Shown here one piece after another: positions 6,328 through 14,768 of a stretch of DNA of 17,139 nucleotides (the stretch's first letter is position 1; each line of letters starts with the position of its first letter). The position numbers and the translations under genes are program-made. This DNA comes from Ruminococcaceae bacterium UBA5391. GTDB lineage: Bacteria; Bacillota; Clostridia; Oscillospirales; Acutalibacteraceae. The stretch lies in assembly GCA_002410755.1 (NCBI GenBank), contig DHOL01000078.1, positions 1-17,139 of the forward strand, in the 5' to 3' direction. Under the pieces are notes generated by a model. It saw only the letters and a program-made list of their open reading frames with translations, ran no database searches and was not told the origin of the DNA.

Positions 6328-7218
6328 TTATCCTGCGCCGAGAATGACAATGCCGATTACTGCTATGAAAATAGCGGCGTACTGTTTTACTGTAAGCTTT
6401 TCCTTTAAAATCAGCCTTGCCCACAGAACAGAAAAAATACAGTAAGAGGAAATCAGCGGGGCTGCAACGATTGCATTGTCGCCCAGCGCGTAAATATATG
6501 CGAACTGCCCTGCGGTCTCACAAAGGCCTGCCACAATTTTGGGCTTCTCTTTGGAAAGCCTGATCTTCTGTTTCCTGACAACAACAAGATACAGGTAAGA
6601 CAGGACTGCCAGGAACAGGAAGGTCAGCTCATATGCAATGTTTGCGGTCCCTTCCTGTATGTATTGATTCAGCACGAGGGCGTCCCCAAAAGTCCCGAGG
6701 CCATCAATGAGGCAATATAGGATGGGGAAAAGTATGGCGATTAAGCTGTTAGTATATTTCTTTTCGGGCACGTTCCCTTCCTGGAGCCGCTTTGCGTCGT
6801 CCTGCTCCTTTTCAAAGAAAGACAGCGCAAAAATCCCGGCTGTAATTAAGGCAACAGCGGTCAGTTGCAGCCAGCTCATCCTTTGGTTCAGAAAGAAAAA
6901 GCAGAGCAGGGCGGCAACCGCTCCGGACGAATTGCAGACAGGTGTCGAAACGGAAAGGGTTACGTACCGGAGGCCCGCATACCCCAGCACCATGGCGGAG
7001 ATATAGAGCAGGGACACCGGCAAATAGAGGATAAGGTCCTCTATTTTGAATGGGACGCCTTGGAGAAGCTCAATTCCGGCGTGGATGCCCATAATCAGCC
7101 CGACTGCTATGACCATTTTCCAGTGGCTGTATTTGTCGTCGGGCTTTGAGCCGATTTTCGAGAAGAGATCAGAGCCGCTCCAGAAAAGGATTGCAATGAG
7201 CGAGAGCCAAAACCACAT
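6328..7218 (-). CDS. EamA/DMT-family transporter
   Basis: Taken from the ATG at 7218 this is a 296-residue protein with ten predicted membrane helices arranged as two EamA repeats, starting MWFWLSLIAILFWSGSDLFSK and ending in a family-like GIVILGAG. A charged cytoplasmic linker with EKEQDDAKR separates the halves near residue 135. The start is set by GTGAGGAAG about 8 bp upstream and by the usual 290-300 residue family length. The open frame continues 86 codons further upstream but that extension is not membrane-like and has no ribosome site. DMT members export small metabolites or amino acids; the substrate is unknown. It converges on the ABC operon and is likely monocistronic. Confidence 0.88.
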   Translation of the reverse strand: MWFWLSLIAILFWSGSDLFSKIGSKPDDKYSHWKMVIAVGLIMGIHAGIELLQGVPFKIEDLILYLPVSLLYISAMVLGYAGLRYVTLSVSTPVCNSSGAVAALLCFFFLNQRMSWLQLTAVALITAGIFALSFFEKEQDDAKRLQEGNVPEKKYTNSLIAILFPILYCLIDGLGTFGDALVLNQYIQEGTANIAYELTFLFLAVLSYLYLVVVRKQKIRLSKEKPKIVAGLCETAGQFAYIYALGDNAIVAAPLISSYCIFSVLWARLILKEKLTVKQYAAIFIAVIGIVILGAG

Positions 7219-7380
7219 ATTCTTCTTCCTCACGTTAAAAATAATAGCCGGCCCGAGCTTCAGGAGGAAATTCTCTGTGCCGGTGCAAAGAATCCATGGC
7301 GCTTGGGTATCCCTTGGTTTTAGGCCCGGCTTGGCTTTGAAACCGGATGCAAGTTTATTTTGGCACAGTCCGCTTTTTCC

Positions 7381-7408
7381 TTGACTATCCTGTAAAAAGA
7401 GGTATAAT
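7381..7408 (+). promoter_or_regulatory. Strong sigma-A promoter in a gene-free region
   Basis: TTGACT (7381-7386), a 16-bp spacer and a perfect TATAAT (7403-7408) predict a start near 7415. No recognisable gene follows; hairpins and an intrinsic terminator do. Confidence 0.7.
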
Positions 7409-7414
7409 TTACCT

Positions 7415-7631
7415 GTAAGGCATAAAATAAAAGATGCAATGCAGAAGCAGGTGTGAAGAGCGCCTGCCTTCTGCATATGGAGCCACTACCTCCATATGCA
7501 ACCGATTCATCGGCACATTGCAGCTCTTATTATACCTCCTGTTTCTGTTTTTGTACAGGGGATAGTTTTAAGTTCTACAGGTGTGTTGGGCGTTGGATAT
7601 GGACAGGGAGTTCATACTCAGCGCTTTTTTT
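7415..7631 (+). ncRNA. Candidate structured non-coding RNA, about 215 nt
   Basis: Bounded by a strong promoter (7381-7408) and an intrinsic terminator (7590-7631). The 5' half folds into a junction: closing helix TGCAAT/ATTGCA (7435-7440 with 7517-7522); a 13-bp hairpin GCAGAAG-CAGGTG / CGCCTG-C-CTTCTGC (7441-7474, one bulged C); an 11-bp perfect inverted repeat TGCATATGGAG/CTCCATATGCA (7472-7482 with 7490-7500); and a small hairpin CCGA-TTCA-TCGG (7502-7513). A further helix CTCCTGT/ACAGGGG lies at 7536-7561. The second and third stems share TGC at 7472-7474, so they may be alternatives. It matches no RNA family I recognise. A 43-codon ORF with a hydrophobic tail lies inside, so a peptide-coding transcript is an alternative. 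Confidence 0.5.
7590..7631 (+). terminator. Intrinsic terminator of the candidate ncRNA
   Basis: GCGTTG (7590-7595) pairs with CAGCGC (7619-7624) and, after one G-U and one A-C position, TATGGAC pairs with GTTCATA around a 5-nt loop. Seven T residues follow directly (7625-7631). Confidence 0.8.
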
Positions 7632-7662
7632 GTGTCTTGCATAATCGGGGGACCGGCAGGGT

Positions 7663-7691
7663 TTGACAAAATCCCCTTAGCCCCTTATTTT
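7663..7691 (+). promoter_or_regulatory. Candidate promoter upstream of the enoate reductase
   Basis: TTGACA (7663-7668), 17-bp spacer, TATTTT (7686-7691). Start would be near 7698, giving a ~300-nt leader to the reductase or a separate small RNA carrying the hairpin at 7722-7798. Confidence 0.4.
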
Positions 7692-7721
7692 GTTTGTGAA
7701 AAAAGTTTACGATAGAAAAAT

Positions 7722-7798
7722 GAAGGCAGCACCAGCCGGACTGGAGCAGGGGATTTTTGCACCGCCTGCGCCGAGGCCTTCCGACTGATGCTGCCTCC
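7722..7798 (-). terminator. Long hairpin, best paired on the minus strand
   Basis: The arms 7725-7740 and 7780-7795 differ from perfect complementarity at two positions that are C-A on the plus strand but G-U on the minus strand. With flanking bases the minus-strand stem reaches about 19 bp and is followed by ATTTTTCTATC, so it has the form of a minus-strand intrinsic terminator. An inner helix GGaGCAGG/CCTGCgCC (7743-7750 with 7765-7772) adds to the structure. No minus-strand transcript that would need it is evident, so its role is open. Confidence 0.4.
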
Positions 7799-7813
7799 TC
7801 CTTTATTTCATTA

Positions 7814-7842
7814 TTGACATTTTTATTTTACGGTGATACAGT
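7814..7842 (+). promoter_or_regulatory. Promoter of the 2-enoate reductase gene
   Basis: TTGACA (7814-7819), 17-bp spacer, TACAGT (7837-7842) with a TG extension at 7834-7835. Start near 7849 leaves a ~150-nt leader. Confidence 0.55.
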
Positions 7843-7864
7843 TTATTATGGATGAAAGAAAAAA

Positions 7865-7929
7865 GGAAAAGTCGGCTGAAAAAATGACGGCGCCGAAGAG
7901 TTTTTCCTTAATTCACAATCGACTTTTCC
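7865..7929 (+). other. Hairpin in the reductase leader
   Basis: GGAAAAGTCG (7865-7874) pairs perfectly with CGACTTTTCC (7920-7929). Inside, GAAAAA pairs with TTTTTC around a CGGCGCCG palindrome. The plus strand has no T tract after it; the minus strand has TTTTTTC, so it would also work as a minus-strand terminator. It lies between promoter and start codon and may act as a leader structure. Confidence 0.45.
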
Positions 7930-8001
7930 CGGTGCCCCTCTGAGGTGCTGCCCCCTTGCCAACAGGTATTCCTGCTGCACTTTTGAAAGGAAGAATTGTG
8001 G

Positions 8002-9999
8002 ATGGAAAAGTATGCAAATCTTTTTGACACGGTGTCAATCGGAAAGTGCAAACTCAAAAACCGTTTTGCAATGGCCCCAATGGGCCCGCTGGGCTTAGGG
8101 GATTCCGAGGGCGGGTTTAACCAGAGGGGCATTGACTATTATGTGGAACGGGCAAAGGGCGGAACCGGCCTGATTATTACCGGTGTTACCTTTGTGGACA
8201 ACACAGTCGAAAAGCATGACATGCCCAACACGCCCTGCTCGACATACAATCCGGTGCATTTTACACGCACGGCAAGAGAAATGACGGAAAGAATCCATGC
8301 GTATGATGCGAAGGTTTTTCTTCAGCTTTCAGGGGGTTTCGGCCGTGTTACCATCCCTACCAACCTCGGTGAGCACCCGCCTGTAGCCCCTTCAGCAATT
8401 CCCCACCGCTGGCTGGACAAGACTTGCCGGCCGCTGAAAAAAGATGAGATAAGGGAAATTGAAAAGCAGTTTGGGGAAGGCGCCTATCATGCAAAACGTG
8501 CCGGATTCGACGGGATAGAAGTCCACGCCGTCCATGAGGGGTACTTGATTGATCAGTTCGCAATTTCGTTTTTTAATCACCGGACGGATGAGTATGGCGG
8601 AAGCCTTGAAAACAGGCTCCGCTTTGCAAAGGAAATCCTCGAGGAAATCAAGGGTAAATGCGGCAGCGATTATCCTGTAGCAATGCGGTTCAGCGTTAAG
8701 AGCTTTATTAAAGACTGGCGTGTTGGCGGCCTGCCGGGCGAAAAGTTCCAGGAGAAGGGCCGCGATGTTGAAGAAGGGCTGGAAGCCGCTAAGCTGCTCG
8801 TACAGTACGGCTACGATGCCCTGGATGTTGATGTGGGCTGCTATGATGCCTGGTGGTGGAACCATCCGCCAATGTATCAGAAAAAGGGGCTGTATATCCC
8901 GTACTGCAAAATGGTGCGCGATGTGGTTCATGTCCCCATTCTCTGTGCCGGCAGAATGGACAACCCCGATTTGTCGTCAAAGGCGGTAAGCGATGGGGCC
9001 TGTGACATTGTTTCCCTTGGCCGGCCGCTGCTGGCTGACCCGGATTATGTCAATAAGCTTGCGGCTGGTGAAGAAAAATATATTCGGCCCTGCCTGTCCT
9101 GCCAGGAAGGCTGCATGGGCCGTATAGCGTCATATTCTGCAATTAACTGTGCCGTCAACCCTCAGGCCGCAAGGGAACGTGTGGAGCGCCTTACGCCGGC
9201 TCTCAGCCCGAAAAAAGTGGCGGTTATTGGCGGCGGTGTGGCAGGCTGCGAAGCGGCGCGCGTCCTTGCCCTGCGTGGGCATAAGCCTGTCATTTTCGAG
9301 AAATCCGGAAAACTGGGCGGCAACCTGATTGCCGGCGGTATGCCATCATTTAAGGAAGATGACCATGCCCTGATCCGCTATTATGAAAATCAGCTTGAAA
9401 GGCTCAGGGTGCCTGTTTATTTTAACCGGCAGATGACCGCACAGCAGGTCATTGATGAAAAAGCAGACGAAGTGATTGTTGCAACCGGCTCCAATCCAAA
9501 GCTTTTCAGGCTTGGCAGTTCCCCCGTGTTCCCGGCTGCCGATGTGCTCCTCGGCAAAGTGAAAGCCGGCCCGAAAGTAGCCATTATCGGCGGCGGCCTT
9601 GTCGGCTGCGAGACAGCTTTGCATCTGCGTGAGCAGGGCAGGGAAGTCACCATTGTTGAGGCCTTGCCGAAGCTCCTGTCCGTCAATGCGCCTCTCTGCA
9701 GTGCCAACAAAGACATGCTGCTGGCGCTGATTCCATTTAAGGGGATTAAGAGCATAACCGGCGCAAAAGCCACGGGCTACAGTGCAGGCCGCTTGACGGT
9801 CGAGAAGAACCAGGGCGGGACTGATACCATTGATGCGGATACGGTAATCCTTGCGGTTGGCTATTCTTCGGAGAACACACTTTACAGCGAGATTCAGCGT
9901 AAACTTCCGCGTGTGCATTTAATTGGTGATGCGCGTTCGGTCGCAAATATCATGTATGCGATTTGGGATGCCTATGAAGTAGCCAGAACGCTTGAATAA
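8002..9999 (+). CDS. Old yellow enzyme-type Fe-S flavoprotein (2-enoate reductase / 2,4-dienoyl-CoA reductase family)
   Basis: A 665-residue enzyme with the family's three parts. Residues 1-350 form the FMN-binding TIM barrel, with HAVHEGYLIDQF (the tyrosine near 181 is the expected proton donor) and NHRTDEYGGS. Cysteines at 364, 367, 371 and 383 (CxxCxxxCx11C) bind a 4Fe-4S cluster. The C-terminal half has two dinucleotide-binding folds, VAVIGGGVAG near 410 and VAIIGGGLVG, for FAD and NAD(P)H. Relatives include clostridial 2-enoate reductase (FldZ), BaiCD/BaiH and NADH oxidases, which reduce activated C=C bonds by electron flow FAD to Fe-S to FMN. The ATG at 8002 lies 8 bp after AAGGAAG; a TTG six bases upstream is too close to it. 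It is monocistronic. Substrate cannot be fixed from sequence. Confidence 0.9.
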   Translation: MEKYANLFDTVSIGKCKLKNRFAMAPMGPLGLGDSEGGFNQRGIDYYVERAKGGTGLIITGVTFVDNTVEKHDMPNTPCSTYNPVHFTRTAREMTERIHAYDAKVFLQLSGGFGRVTIPTNLGEHPPVAPSAIPHRWLDKTCRPLKKDEIREIEKQFGEGAYHAKRAGFDGIEVHAVHEGYLIDQFAISFFNHRTDEYGGSLENRLRFAKEILEEIKGKCGSDYPVAMRFSVKSFIKDWRVGGLPGEKFQEKGRDVEEGLEAAKLLVQYGYDALDVDVGCYDAWWWNHPPMYQKKGLYIPYCKMVRDVVHVPILCAGRMDNPDLSSKAVSDGACDIVSLGRPLLADPDYVNKLAAGEEKYIRPCLSCQEGCMGRIASYSAINCAVNPQAARERVERLTPALSPKKVAVIGGGVAGCEAARVLALRGHKPVIFEKSGKLGGNLIAGGMPSFKEDDHALIRYYENQLERLRVPVYFNRQMTAQQVIDEKADEVIVATGSNPKLFRLGSSPVFPAADVLLGKVKAGPKVAIIGGGLVGCETALHLREQGREVTIVEALPKLLSVNAPLCSANKDMLLALIPFKGIKSITGAKATGYSAGRLTVEKNQGGTDTIDADTVILAVGYSSENTLYSEIQRKLPRVHLIGDARSVANIMYAIWDAYEVARTLE

Positions 10000-14640: not shown

Positions 14641-14666
14641 CTATGGGCGTGTTCATTTTCCTGTAT

Positions 14667-14736
14667 GCCCCAGTAGCTTAACGAAAGAGCATTTGGGTTA
14701 CTCCAAAGGTTGTCGGTTCAACTCCGTCCCAGGGCA
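14667..14736 (+). tRNA. Degenerate tRNA-like element
   Basis: All four arms are recognisable: T8-A9 and a D stem GCTT/GAGC (14676-14690), an anticodon stem TTTGG/CCAAA (14692-14707), and a T arm GTCGG-TTCAACT-CCGTC (14712-14728) with a correct T loop. It departs from a working tRNA in several ways: the acceptor (14667-14673 with 14729-14735) has two mismatches (C-A, A-C), the D loop lacks the GG pair, the anticodon loop has six bases (GTTACT), the variable loop has four, the T stem has a T-T mismatch, and no CCA is encoded. No isotype can be assigned. With no terminator after it, it would be the 5' leader of the next gene. Confidence 0.45.
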
Positions 14737-14768
14737 AAAAATATTCACACAGAGTGAGGTATAAAATT

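Follow-up and report, generated by a model that had tools for sequence, protein, structure and literature searches.

A dispersed RNA element of some Clostridia with separately covarying folds on its two strands, a possible antisense pair with copy-specific loops

Introduction

The plasmid ColE1 encodes RNAII, which primes plasmid replication, and RNAI, a three-hairpin antisense RNA of ~100 nt that lies inside the complement of the longer RNAII and whose specificity is defined by its loops. The hok mRNA pairs its 5' end with its own 3' end, with an antisense RNA inside. Sib/Ibs loci are multicopy, and Han et al. in 2010 reportedly found that the Sib loops discriminate between paralogs. The consulted part of one account describes Sib/Ibs of E. 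coli as a type I toxin-antitoxin system, in which the antitoxin RNA carries the target recognition domains TRD1 and TRD2 and the toxin IbsC has 19 amino acids (PMC8309996). Among the Firmicutes, LhrC of Listeria (PMC4132741) and the csRNAs of streptococci (PMC4438229) each comprise five similar copies according to the excerpts used, and LhrC is said in the former to act via a repeated UCCC motif. As presented in two further reports, MRSC-65-2 is a single long stem from diverse phyla and a candidate mobile or repeat sequence (PMC11109978), and TwoAYGGAY (RF01731) comes from Clostridiales (PMC2864571).

Here we consider positions 7381-7631 of the window, by which we mean the whole 17,139-nucleotide stretch of DNA that was analysed. 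This segment is one copy of a dispersed multicopy RNA element of some Clostridia. RNA2 (minus strand, ~100 nt) would sit inside the complement of RNA1 (plus strand, ~215 nt or more). As in Sib/Ibs, the RNAs lie on opposite strands, but the element has no conserved reading frame. By analogy with ColE1, a ~100-nt antisense RNA would be nested in the complement of a longer one and have variable loops in conserved hairpins, and those loops might likewise set specificity. In contrast to ColE1, however, the element is chromosomal and no replicon was seen; phage and plasmid collections held no match, and a plasmid or phage origin was rejected. The fold-back of RNA1 by its end helix P0, together with an inner antisense RNA, recalls hok, although no toxin ORF was found in the element. 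LhrC and the csRNAs are also small multicopy sRNA families, but their descriptions, in the excerpts used, include no overlapping opposite-strand partner, and the repeated UCCC motif given there for LhrC differs from the copy-specific loops seen here. Motifs described, in the portion consulted, as mobile or repeat candidates likewise covary and occur in many copies per genome, whereas this element comprises two RNAs and falls mostly in one family. The likeness to TwoAYGGAY is one of name, through UAUGGA motifs, and the tested copies have no Rfam match. On the best reading of the sequences, the layout would resemble Sib/Ibs or RNAI/RNAII, but without a conserved ORF or replicon.

We tentatively suggest, with somewhat less than even confidence, that this is a dispersed and apparently long-lived element encoding two overlapping opposite-strand structured RNAs, an antisense pair with copy-specific loops. 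It would add a family absent from Rfam to the RNAs of Acutalibacteraceae such as Caproiciproducens, and in it the two strands of a single short element each have covarying structures of their own. Because origin clustering, apparently stable neighbourhoods and fast-changing loops are combined in it, the orthogonality of paralogous antisense RNAs and the gathering of RNA genes at the origin become testable.

The locus and the strand of its junction

An earlier note had proposed, from this sequence, a plus-strand structured RNA between a near-consensus promoter and a U7 terminator. Both of these boundaries are present (Table 1), the hairpin and its T7 run by inspection and folding; a simple terminator scan reported no site in the 7000-8100 region, the hairpin-U7 included. 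The same region holds 6 promoter-like sites, compared with 1.6 ± 1.5 in shuffles. On the plus strand, 7381-7631 has an MFE of -89.1, compared with -64.6 ± 4.6 in 200 shuffles (z -5.33), and the multi-stem fold that had been described is found there, comprising three hairpins, two of them long and one small, and a helix (7435-7441/7516-7522) that closes the junction. The note had also recognised no gene, and this holds: the listed ORFs that cross the element, one of 63 aa on the plus strand and one of 382 aa on the minus strand running into eamA, have frames that are not conserved among copies. Nor did Rfam covariance models match within the element, in keeping with its view that no known family is represented. 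Among the homologous regions both strands covary, and 0 of 500 shuffles equals either fold.

The first search returned copies in mixed orientations because the core is quasi-palindromic, and copies were re-oriented by their own promoter and terminator. On the minus strand, G.U pairs are kept in 38, 34, 34 and 31 of 39 copies at four positions; read on the plus strand, the conserved G.U columns (46-64, 43-67, 22-39 and 71-101) would become A.C mismatches. RNAalifold gives -31.2 kcal for the minus strand of one 42-copy alignment versus -14.6 kcal for the plus strand, and a covariance model that was itself derived from minus-strand copies gives the window 99.6 bits on the minus and 39.8 on the plus strand. 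We assigned the junction to the minus strand because of these conserved G.U pairs, energies and model scores. Thus the earlier proposal stands as regards a folded, conserved and covarying RNA outside Rfam, but the strand of the conserved junction is minus and not plus. The antisense promoter, the end-pairing by P0, the copy number, the clustering at oriC and the hypervariable loops described below go beyond that note. A single-sequence fold can place a junction on the wrong strand, and the window copy is an example, since it lacks the tell-tale P3 G.U pair kept in 38 of 39 copies.

Table 1. Features of the window copy of the element
Feature	Position	Strand	Basis
RNA1 promoter TTGACT-16-TATAAT	7381..7408	+	11/12 match; spacing 16 or 17 across copies
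RNA1 predicted transcript	7415..7631	+	predicted start 7 nt past -10; end at U-run
P0 5' arm GTAAGGCATAAAA	7415..7427	+	13-bp closing helix in window MFE
P0 3' arm, part of U-run plus GTGTCTTGC	7628..7640	+	window MFE, alignment A2 and permutation test
H5 terminator-like hairpin, conserved UAUGGA...UCCGUA	7590..7624	+	13 pairs, 96.4% of cells paired
U7 run after H5	7625..7631	+	sequence; T-run of at least 4 in the 39 copies tabulated
RNA2, ~100-nt cloverleaf RNA	7424..7522	-	31-pair alignment structure; putative start and end
RNA2 promoter-like TGTACA-17-TATAAT	7529..7557	-	promoter scan and spacing across copies
RNA2 P1 5' arm	7516..7522	-	helix 1, 99.1% of cells paired
RNA2 P1 3' arm	7435..7441	-	helix 1; U-rich run next in most copies
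RNA2 P4 hairpin, 12 nt	7502..7513	-	helix 2, 99.0% paired, both-side changes in 3 pairs
RNA2 P3 hairpin, UAUGGAG/CUCCGUA, hypervariable loop 7483-7489	7472..7500	-	helix 3, 99.8% paired
RNA2 P2 hairpin, hypervariable apical loop	7442..7471	-	helix 4, both-side changes in 5/9 pairs

The minus-strand cloverleaf, RNA2

Over 39 copies the minus strand forms a cloverleaf in the helix order P1, P4, P3, P2, with 31 pairs, 98.4% of 1209 cells paired and both-side changes in 10 pairs. Its covariation is 0.270 versus 0.157 ± 0.006 in shuffles, and 0 of 500 reach any of five measures, in controls that ignore the relatedness of the copies and are inflated by it. When the partners are slid by 1-3 columns, pairing drops to 33-54%. 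The window copy (7424-7528, minus strand) folds with a z of -4.69. The alignments used for the minus- and plus-strand pair tests, A1 and A2, each hold 39 of 45 unique copies, leaving out L011 (identical to L005), L022, L024, L032 and L040 (truncated or with N) and L064 (right half disrupted); the covariance model R1 was built from the same copies later scored with it.

The spacing of the promoter-like site is exactly 17 in 55 of 58 copies, with an altered TGTACA in the remaining 3, and the spacer has a mean column identity of 0.70 (58 copies). At the other end, the U-rich run that follows the 3' arm of P1 would provide the intrinsic end of RNA2.

The predicted plus-strand RNA, RNA1

The plus-strand RNA of the earlier proposal is also supported, by end-pairing in P0 and by the covarying, terminator-like hairpin H5, which would respectively close RNA1 and end it. 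In a search that allowed spacings of 15-19, the best -35 of every one of the 58 parsed copies had a spacing of 16 or 17, in the variants TTGAAT, TTGACT and TTGCAT. Folded from 7415 to 7641, RNA1 has a z of -5.99, with P0 in the MFE structure. Seven pairs of P0 were counted on A2, with 92.3% of cells paired and both-side changes in 5; examples of arms that match within their own copy are AAAAGG/CCUUUU in L035 and UGUGAG/CUCACA in L014. Each copy's own arms pair at a mean of -17.5 kcal compared with -14.7 for permuted partners, and 0 of 20000 permutations are as low (58 of 65 copies, a wrong T-run having been taken as the 3' arm in L042, L047, G183_912527 and G414_3353590). By strand, P0 pairs better on plus in 47 and on minus in 10 of the 58 copies, and the arm differences among 57 copies fall into 58 plus-wobble, 16 minus-wobble and 60 that are neither, many of them at one column. 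H5 has both-side changes in 5 pairs, and at four pairs U.G on the plus strand is commonest. Taken together, P0 and H5 are paired in 95.0% of 779 plus-strand cells, with both-side changes in 10 of 20 pairs, a result reached by 0 of 500 shuffles; here too, and in the permutation of P0 partners, the controls are inflated by the relatedness of the copies.

For P0 to form, RNA1 would need to read through the U-run of H5, and it is then predicted to be longer, to about 7640 or beyond. A further long hairpin 3' of P0, H6, folds better on plus in 34 and on minus in 15 of 55 copies; judged by its sequence, the window copy seems to lack the 3' arm of H6, which would form in other copies. Across 7640-7720 the likeness of the window to other copies goes on beyond P0 (GGCAGGG..., TTTTGTTTGTGAAAAAAG), and the U-runs of both strands precede, by eye, a G(U)GCCUUGC-like tail. 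In most of the copies aligned in A1 and A2, P3 of RNA2 and H5 of RNA1 have UAUGGA...UCCGUA in common, including a conserved U.G pair, as if one factor might bind both RNAs.

Hypervariable loops

The loop tests used 61 parsed copies of 67. Among nine close paralogs of the closed genome G308, the mean distance is 0.41 for the apical nine of P2, 0.42 for the P3 loop and 0.26 for the P2 arms, and 0.00 for the P4 hairpin, 0.04 for the RNA2 promoter region and 0.11 for the RNA1 promoter region. Compared pair by pair with the RNA2 promoter region, the loop distance is larger in 36 of 36 pairs for P2 and in 34 of 36 for P3. Counted by position, the P2 hairpin and P3 loop of these copies differ at 504 of 1212 and the other core at 639 of 6026; the downstream columns differ at 1761 of 4021, a high figure because the copies carry different downstream sequences. 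In the pair 69337/109016, 20 of 36 P2/P3 positions differ, 10 of 169 in the other core and 0 of 103 downstream. Some pairs show no loop excess, among them 12030/3302173 (4/33 in P2/P3 versus 19/169 elsewhere) and 12030/37220 (5/33 versus 17/167).

In G264, G009, G000 and YR-4, and weakly in three ortholog pairs, the mean loop distance is likewise above that of the RNA2 promoter region. The contrast is smaller in G000 (loops 0.39-0.49, P4 0.20, promoter regions 0.17-0.29). For the orthologs L006/L014 the P4 hairpin, at 0.20, exceeds both loops (0.11 and 0.17), and the close orthologs L055/G264_60826 have a P2 apical distance of 0.56. Of 195 within-genome pairs, 6 share a P3 loop, 1 shares a P2 hairpin and none shares both. 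P3 loops are distinct in 51 cases out of 61, and their content of A, only 6% on the RNA2 strand, hints at a constrained or directed diversification process.

We infer from these features that RNA1 and RNA2 would both be made and would pair in the cell, and that this pairing would be cognate. RNA2 would be the antisense partner of RNA1, the two would meet by kissing of complementary P2 and P3 loops, and the loops would diversify so that each copy's RNA2 recognises its own RNA1 only. It may simply be that the loops are under the least constraint, yet the P4 loop and the promoter spacers are nearly fixed in the same paralogs. Copy-specific targets in trans could also explain loop uniqueness: RNA2, RNA1 or both would then constitute a trans-acting sRNA family, with the P2/P3 loops as copy-specific mRNA seeds and the opposite-strand RNA as a sponge. 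This we consider rather unlikely, if deserving of serious weight. It agrees with the lack of a common neighbour gene, with the own promoter and end, the multicopy state and the gene dosage near the origin, and with loop-acting multicopy sRNAs such as LhrC, as described in the consulted part of PMC4132741; but the loops differ even between near-identical paralogs and close orthologs, which would break conserved targets.

Distribution and copy number

In the element's own genome, 71% complete, a DNA search gave 7 matches, two partial, at contig ends; the two partial matches are possibly halves of one copy. The same search, made over 60 relatives, found the element in 9 genomes, 8 of these among the 10 genus genomes examined, and no copy in the near-complete genus members G001 and G008, where the enoate reductase orthologs, considered as empty sites, have different neighbours. 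A pattern scan of a species genome collection yielded 33 loci, in Caproiciproducens (which is placed in Acutalibacteraceae), Caproicibacter, Faecalispora, Clostridium sporosphaeroides, Ruminococcaceae/Oscillospiraceae and other MAGs, one of the hosts being a MAG labelled Pelotomaculum. With the covariance model the core was found in 22 of 398 genomes of the family, in 9 of 135 genera, and in 3 of 391 genomes of the class, the own genome included; because these searches filtered more strictly and scored 9-10 candidates in each genome, their copy numbers are minima. The closed genome G308 has 18 copies (19 rows, one being the opposite strand of another). Its type A copies (within L151-L169) are surrounded by mosaic intergenic repeats with units like GAAATTTTGGGTTAAGAGGC. 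A weaker copy lies at 6756-6922 of L032, an IMG/VR putative viral contig, and 1530 bp are identical between G006:C23 and G007:C13 (L005, L011) of two genus genomes, perhaps through MAG cross-binning.

Position relative to the origin, and neighbours

Copies cluster near oriC in several of the 10 genomes in which dnaA was located by PF00308. Pooled over four one-contig genomes, 20 of 26 copies are no more than 150 kb away from dnaA versus 2.4 expected, at distance cut-offs that were set after the positions had been seen and with G308 copies that are partly recent duplicates. Within 120 kb there are 12 of 18 copies in G308 (1.3 expected, P 2.6e-10; four others lie at 429-1332 kb), 4 of 4 in G414 (P 2e-5) and 1 of 3 in G183 (P 0.21; 3 of 3 within 145 kb), and the single copy of G277 is 29 kb from dnaA. 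In the six drafts, the dnaA contig carries 5 of 5 copies in G264 (P 1e-5), 5 of 11 in G243 (P 0.001) and 2 of 8 in G374 (P 0.04). That of G083 carries 2 of 4, at a distance of about 340-430 kb (P 0.24), and the copies of G201 (0/4) and G034 (0/1) are on other contigs. Five genomes show no clear bias of RNA2 relative to replication, 20 of their 31 copies being co-directional with it.

At two sites, both flanks correspond between G183 and G414. Between genera, three neighbourhoods match: that of the copies at 60.8 kb in G264, 29.0 kb in G277 and 12.0 kb in G308; that at 3219 kb in G308 and 253.7 kb in G264; and that at 3353.6 kb in G414 and 49.9 kb in G308. The homologous genes there are 0.3-3.7 kb away from the copy and in some cases flank it on a single side. 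Element positions thus appear partly stable, the match between genera being one of neighbourhood, short of exact positional orthology.

The flanking ORFs of 45 unique copies, up to three on each side, include no common gene; a leader of a shared gene was therefore rejected, as the earlier note had anticipated in doubting a cis leader. Once orthologous loci and spurious ORFs within the element are set aside, the commonest relation is between ABC-type ATPases of different kinds beside 6 of the 45 (a label read from the sequences). Six of the 20 flanking proteins tested had no Pfam match; the others include peptidyl-tRNA hydrolase, PNPase, a PP-loop ATPase, SpoIIE, a HemN-type radical SAM protein, a CAT-family acetyltransferase and two HTH_38/rve proteins.

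Under a different explanation, the element would be a selfish, dispersed, MITE-like repeat spreading mainly near oriC, with the P0 arms as terminal inverted repeats and folds that serve its own spread. Its many copies in both orientations fit this, as do the three own-genome matches at contig ends, the resemblance of the P0 arms to inverted repeats, the mosaic repeats around the G308 type A copies, the 2 of 20 neighbour proteins with HTH_38 and a near-threshold integrase core, read as IS30-like, and the classing of multicopy motifs as mobile or repeat candidates by Narunsky et al. (PMC11109978, in the portion consulted). The inverted repeat, however, begins 7 nt after the conserved -10, which places the promoter outside the repeat, and homology among copies begins about 35-110 bp ahead of the left arm and continues past the right arm for 25 bp, in some pairs for more than 250 bp. 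A MITE was rejected, since the P0 arms lie inside the conserved unit and homology runs beyond both, so that they are not terminal. The two syntenic occupied/empty sites compared show no target duplication or clean empty site, their flanks being too rearranged for a junction, and the conserved G.U pairs point to RNA. With, in addition, both flanks of two sites conserved between two species and three neighbourhoods between genera, we regard a selfish repeat as quite unlikely.

Returning to the antisense pair, a bolder form of it, which we think unlikely, is that these are non-coding pairs clustered at oriC, with loops under diversifying selection or targeted diversification that give each locus a private RNA-RNA address, and that the pair may serve as a readout of, or play a part in, replication or gene dosage near the origin. 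By eye, no DnaA-box or parS was seen in the element. In L062, and there only, a parS-like palindrome, TGTTTCATGTGAAACA, lies ~190 bp downstream of the U-run side of the P3 anchor.

Coding potential and known families

A coding element was rejected, the frames being conserved on neither strand: 1-nt indels between paralogs break the minus-strand frame, and the longest plus-strand ORFs of 61 copies measure 28-101 aa and have scattered starts. An overlapping opposite-strand structured RNA with its own promoter, as expected of a type I toxin-antitoxin locus, is present as a set of sequence features, and a conserved small hydrophobic ORF was found on neither strand. If the element were such a locus, one RNA would carry a tiny ORF, for example from the AUG in P3 of RNA2 that is preceded by GGAG. 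GGAG and AUG show little or no variation in P3, hydrophobic stretches follow the AUG in more than one frame, and the layout resembles antisense-regulated loci. We nevertheless judge this highly improbable: the AUG, present in 58 of 61 copies, opens peptides of anything from 3 to 90 aa, the 1-nt indels in P2 shift the frame between paralogs, the U-run of RNA2 would end the message within about 15 codons, and the plus-strand ORFs have no common start. The same finding of no conserved ORF also weighs against the antisense reading.

In the window, Rfam 15 gave nothing over the gathering threshold save a tRNA elsewhere, and up to an E of 5 just four sub-threshold eukaryotic families. When 20 further loci were added (67,464 bases in all), a tRNA and a 5S rRNA exceeded the threshold, both outside the element, and sub-threshold T-box and NsiR1 matches also fell outside it. 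One of the side matches, at 3157-3248 of L010 (minus strand), is T-box-like and ends at the locus edge, at 34.2 of 93 bits, below the gathering score. The TwoAYGGAY model (RF01731) matched 0 of 7 genomes, and 14 control genomes were likewise without a match. Nothing recognised as the element came up in the open-access literature searched, subscription papers being mostly outside its scope.

Two other segments of the window may be mentioned. Between the element and the enoate reductase, 7690-7960 has inverted repeats (7711-7740/7780-7809 and 7858-7870/7902-7914) and a promoter-like site, with a fold z of only -1.8. At 14666-14737, Rfam finds a tRNA (38.1 bits) and ARAGORN one without a full anticodon; this tRNA may be unusual or degenerate.
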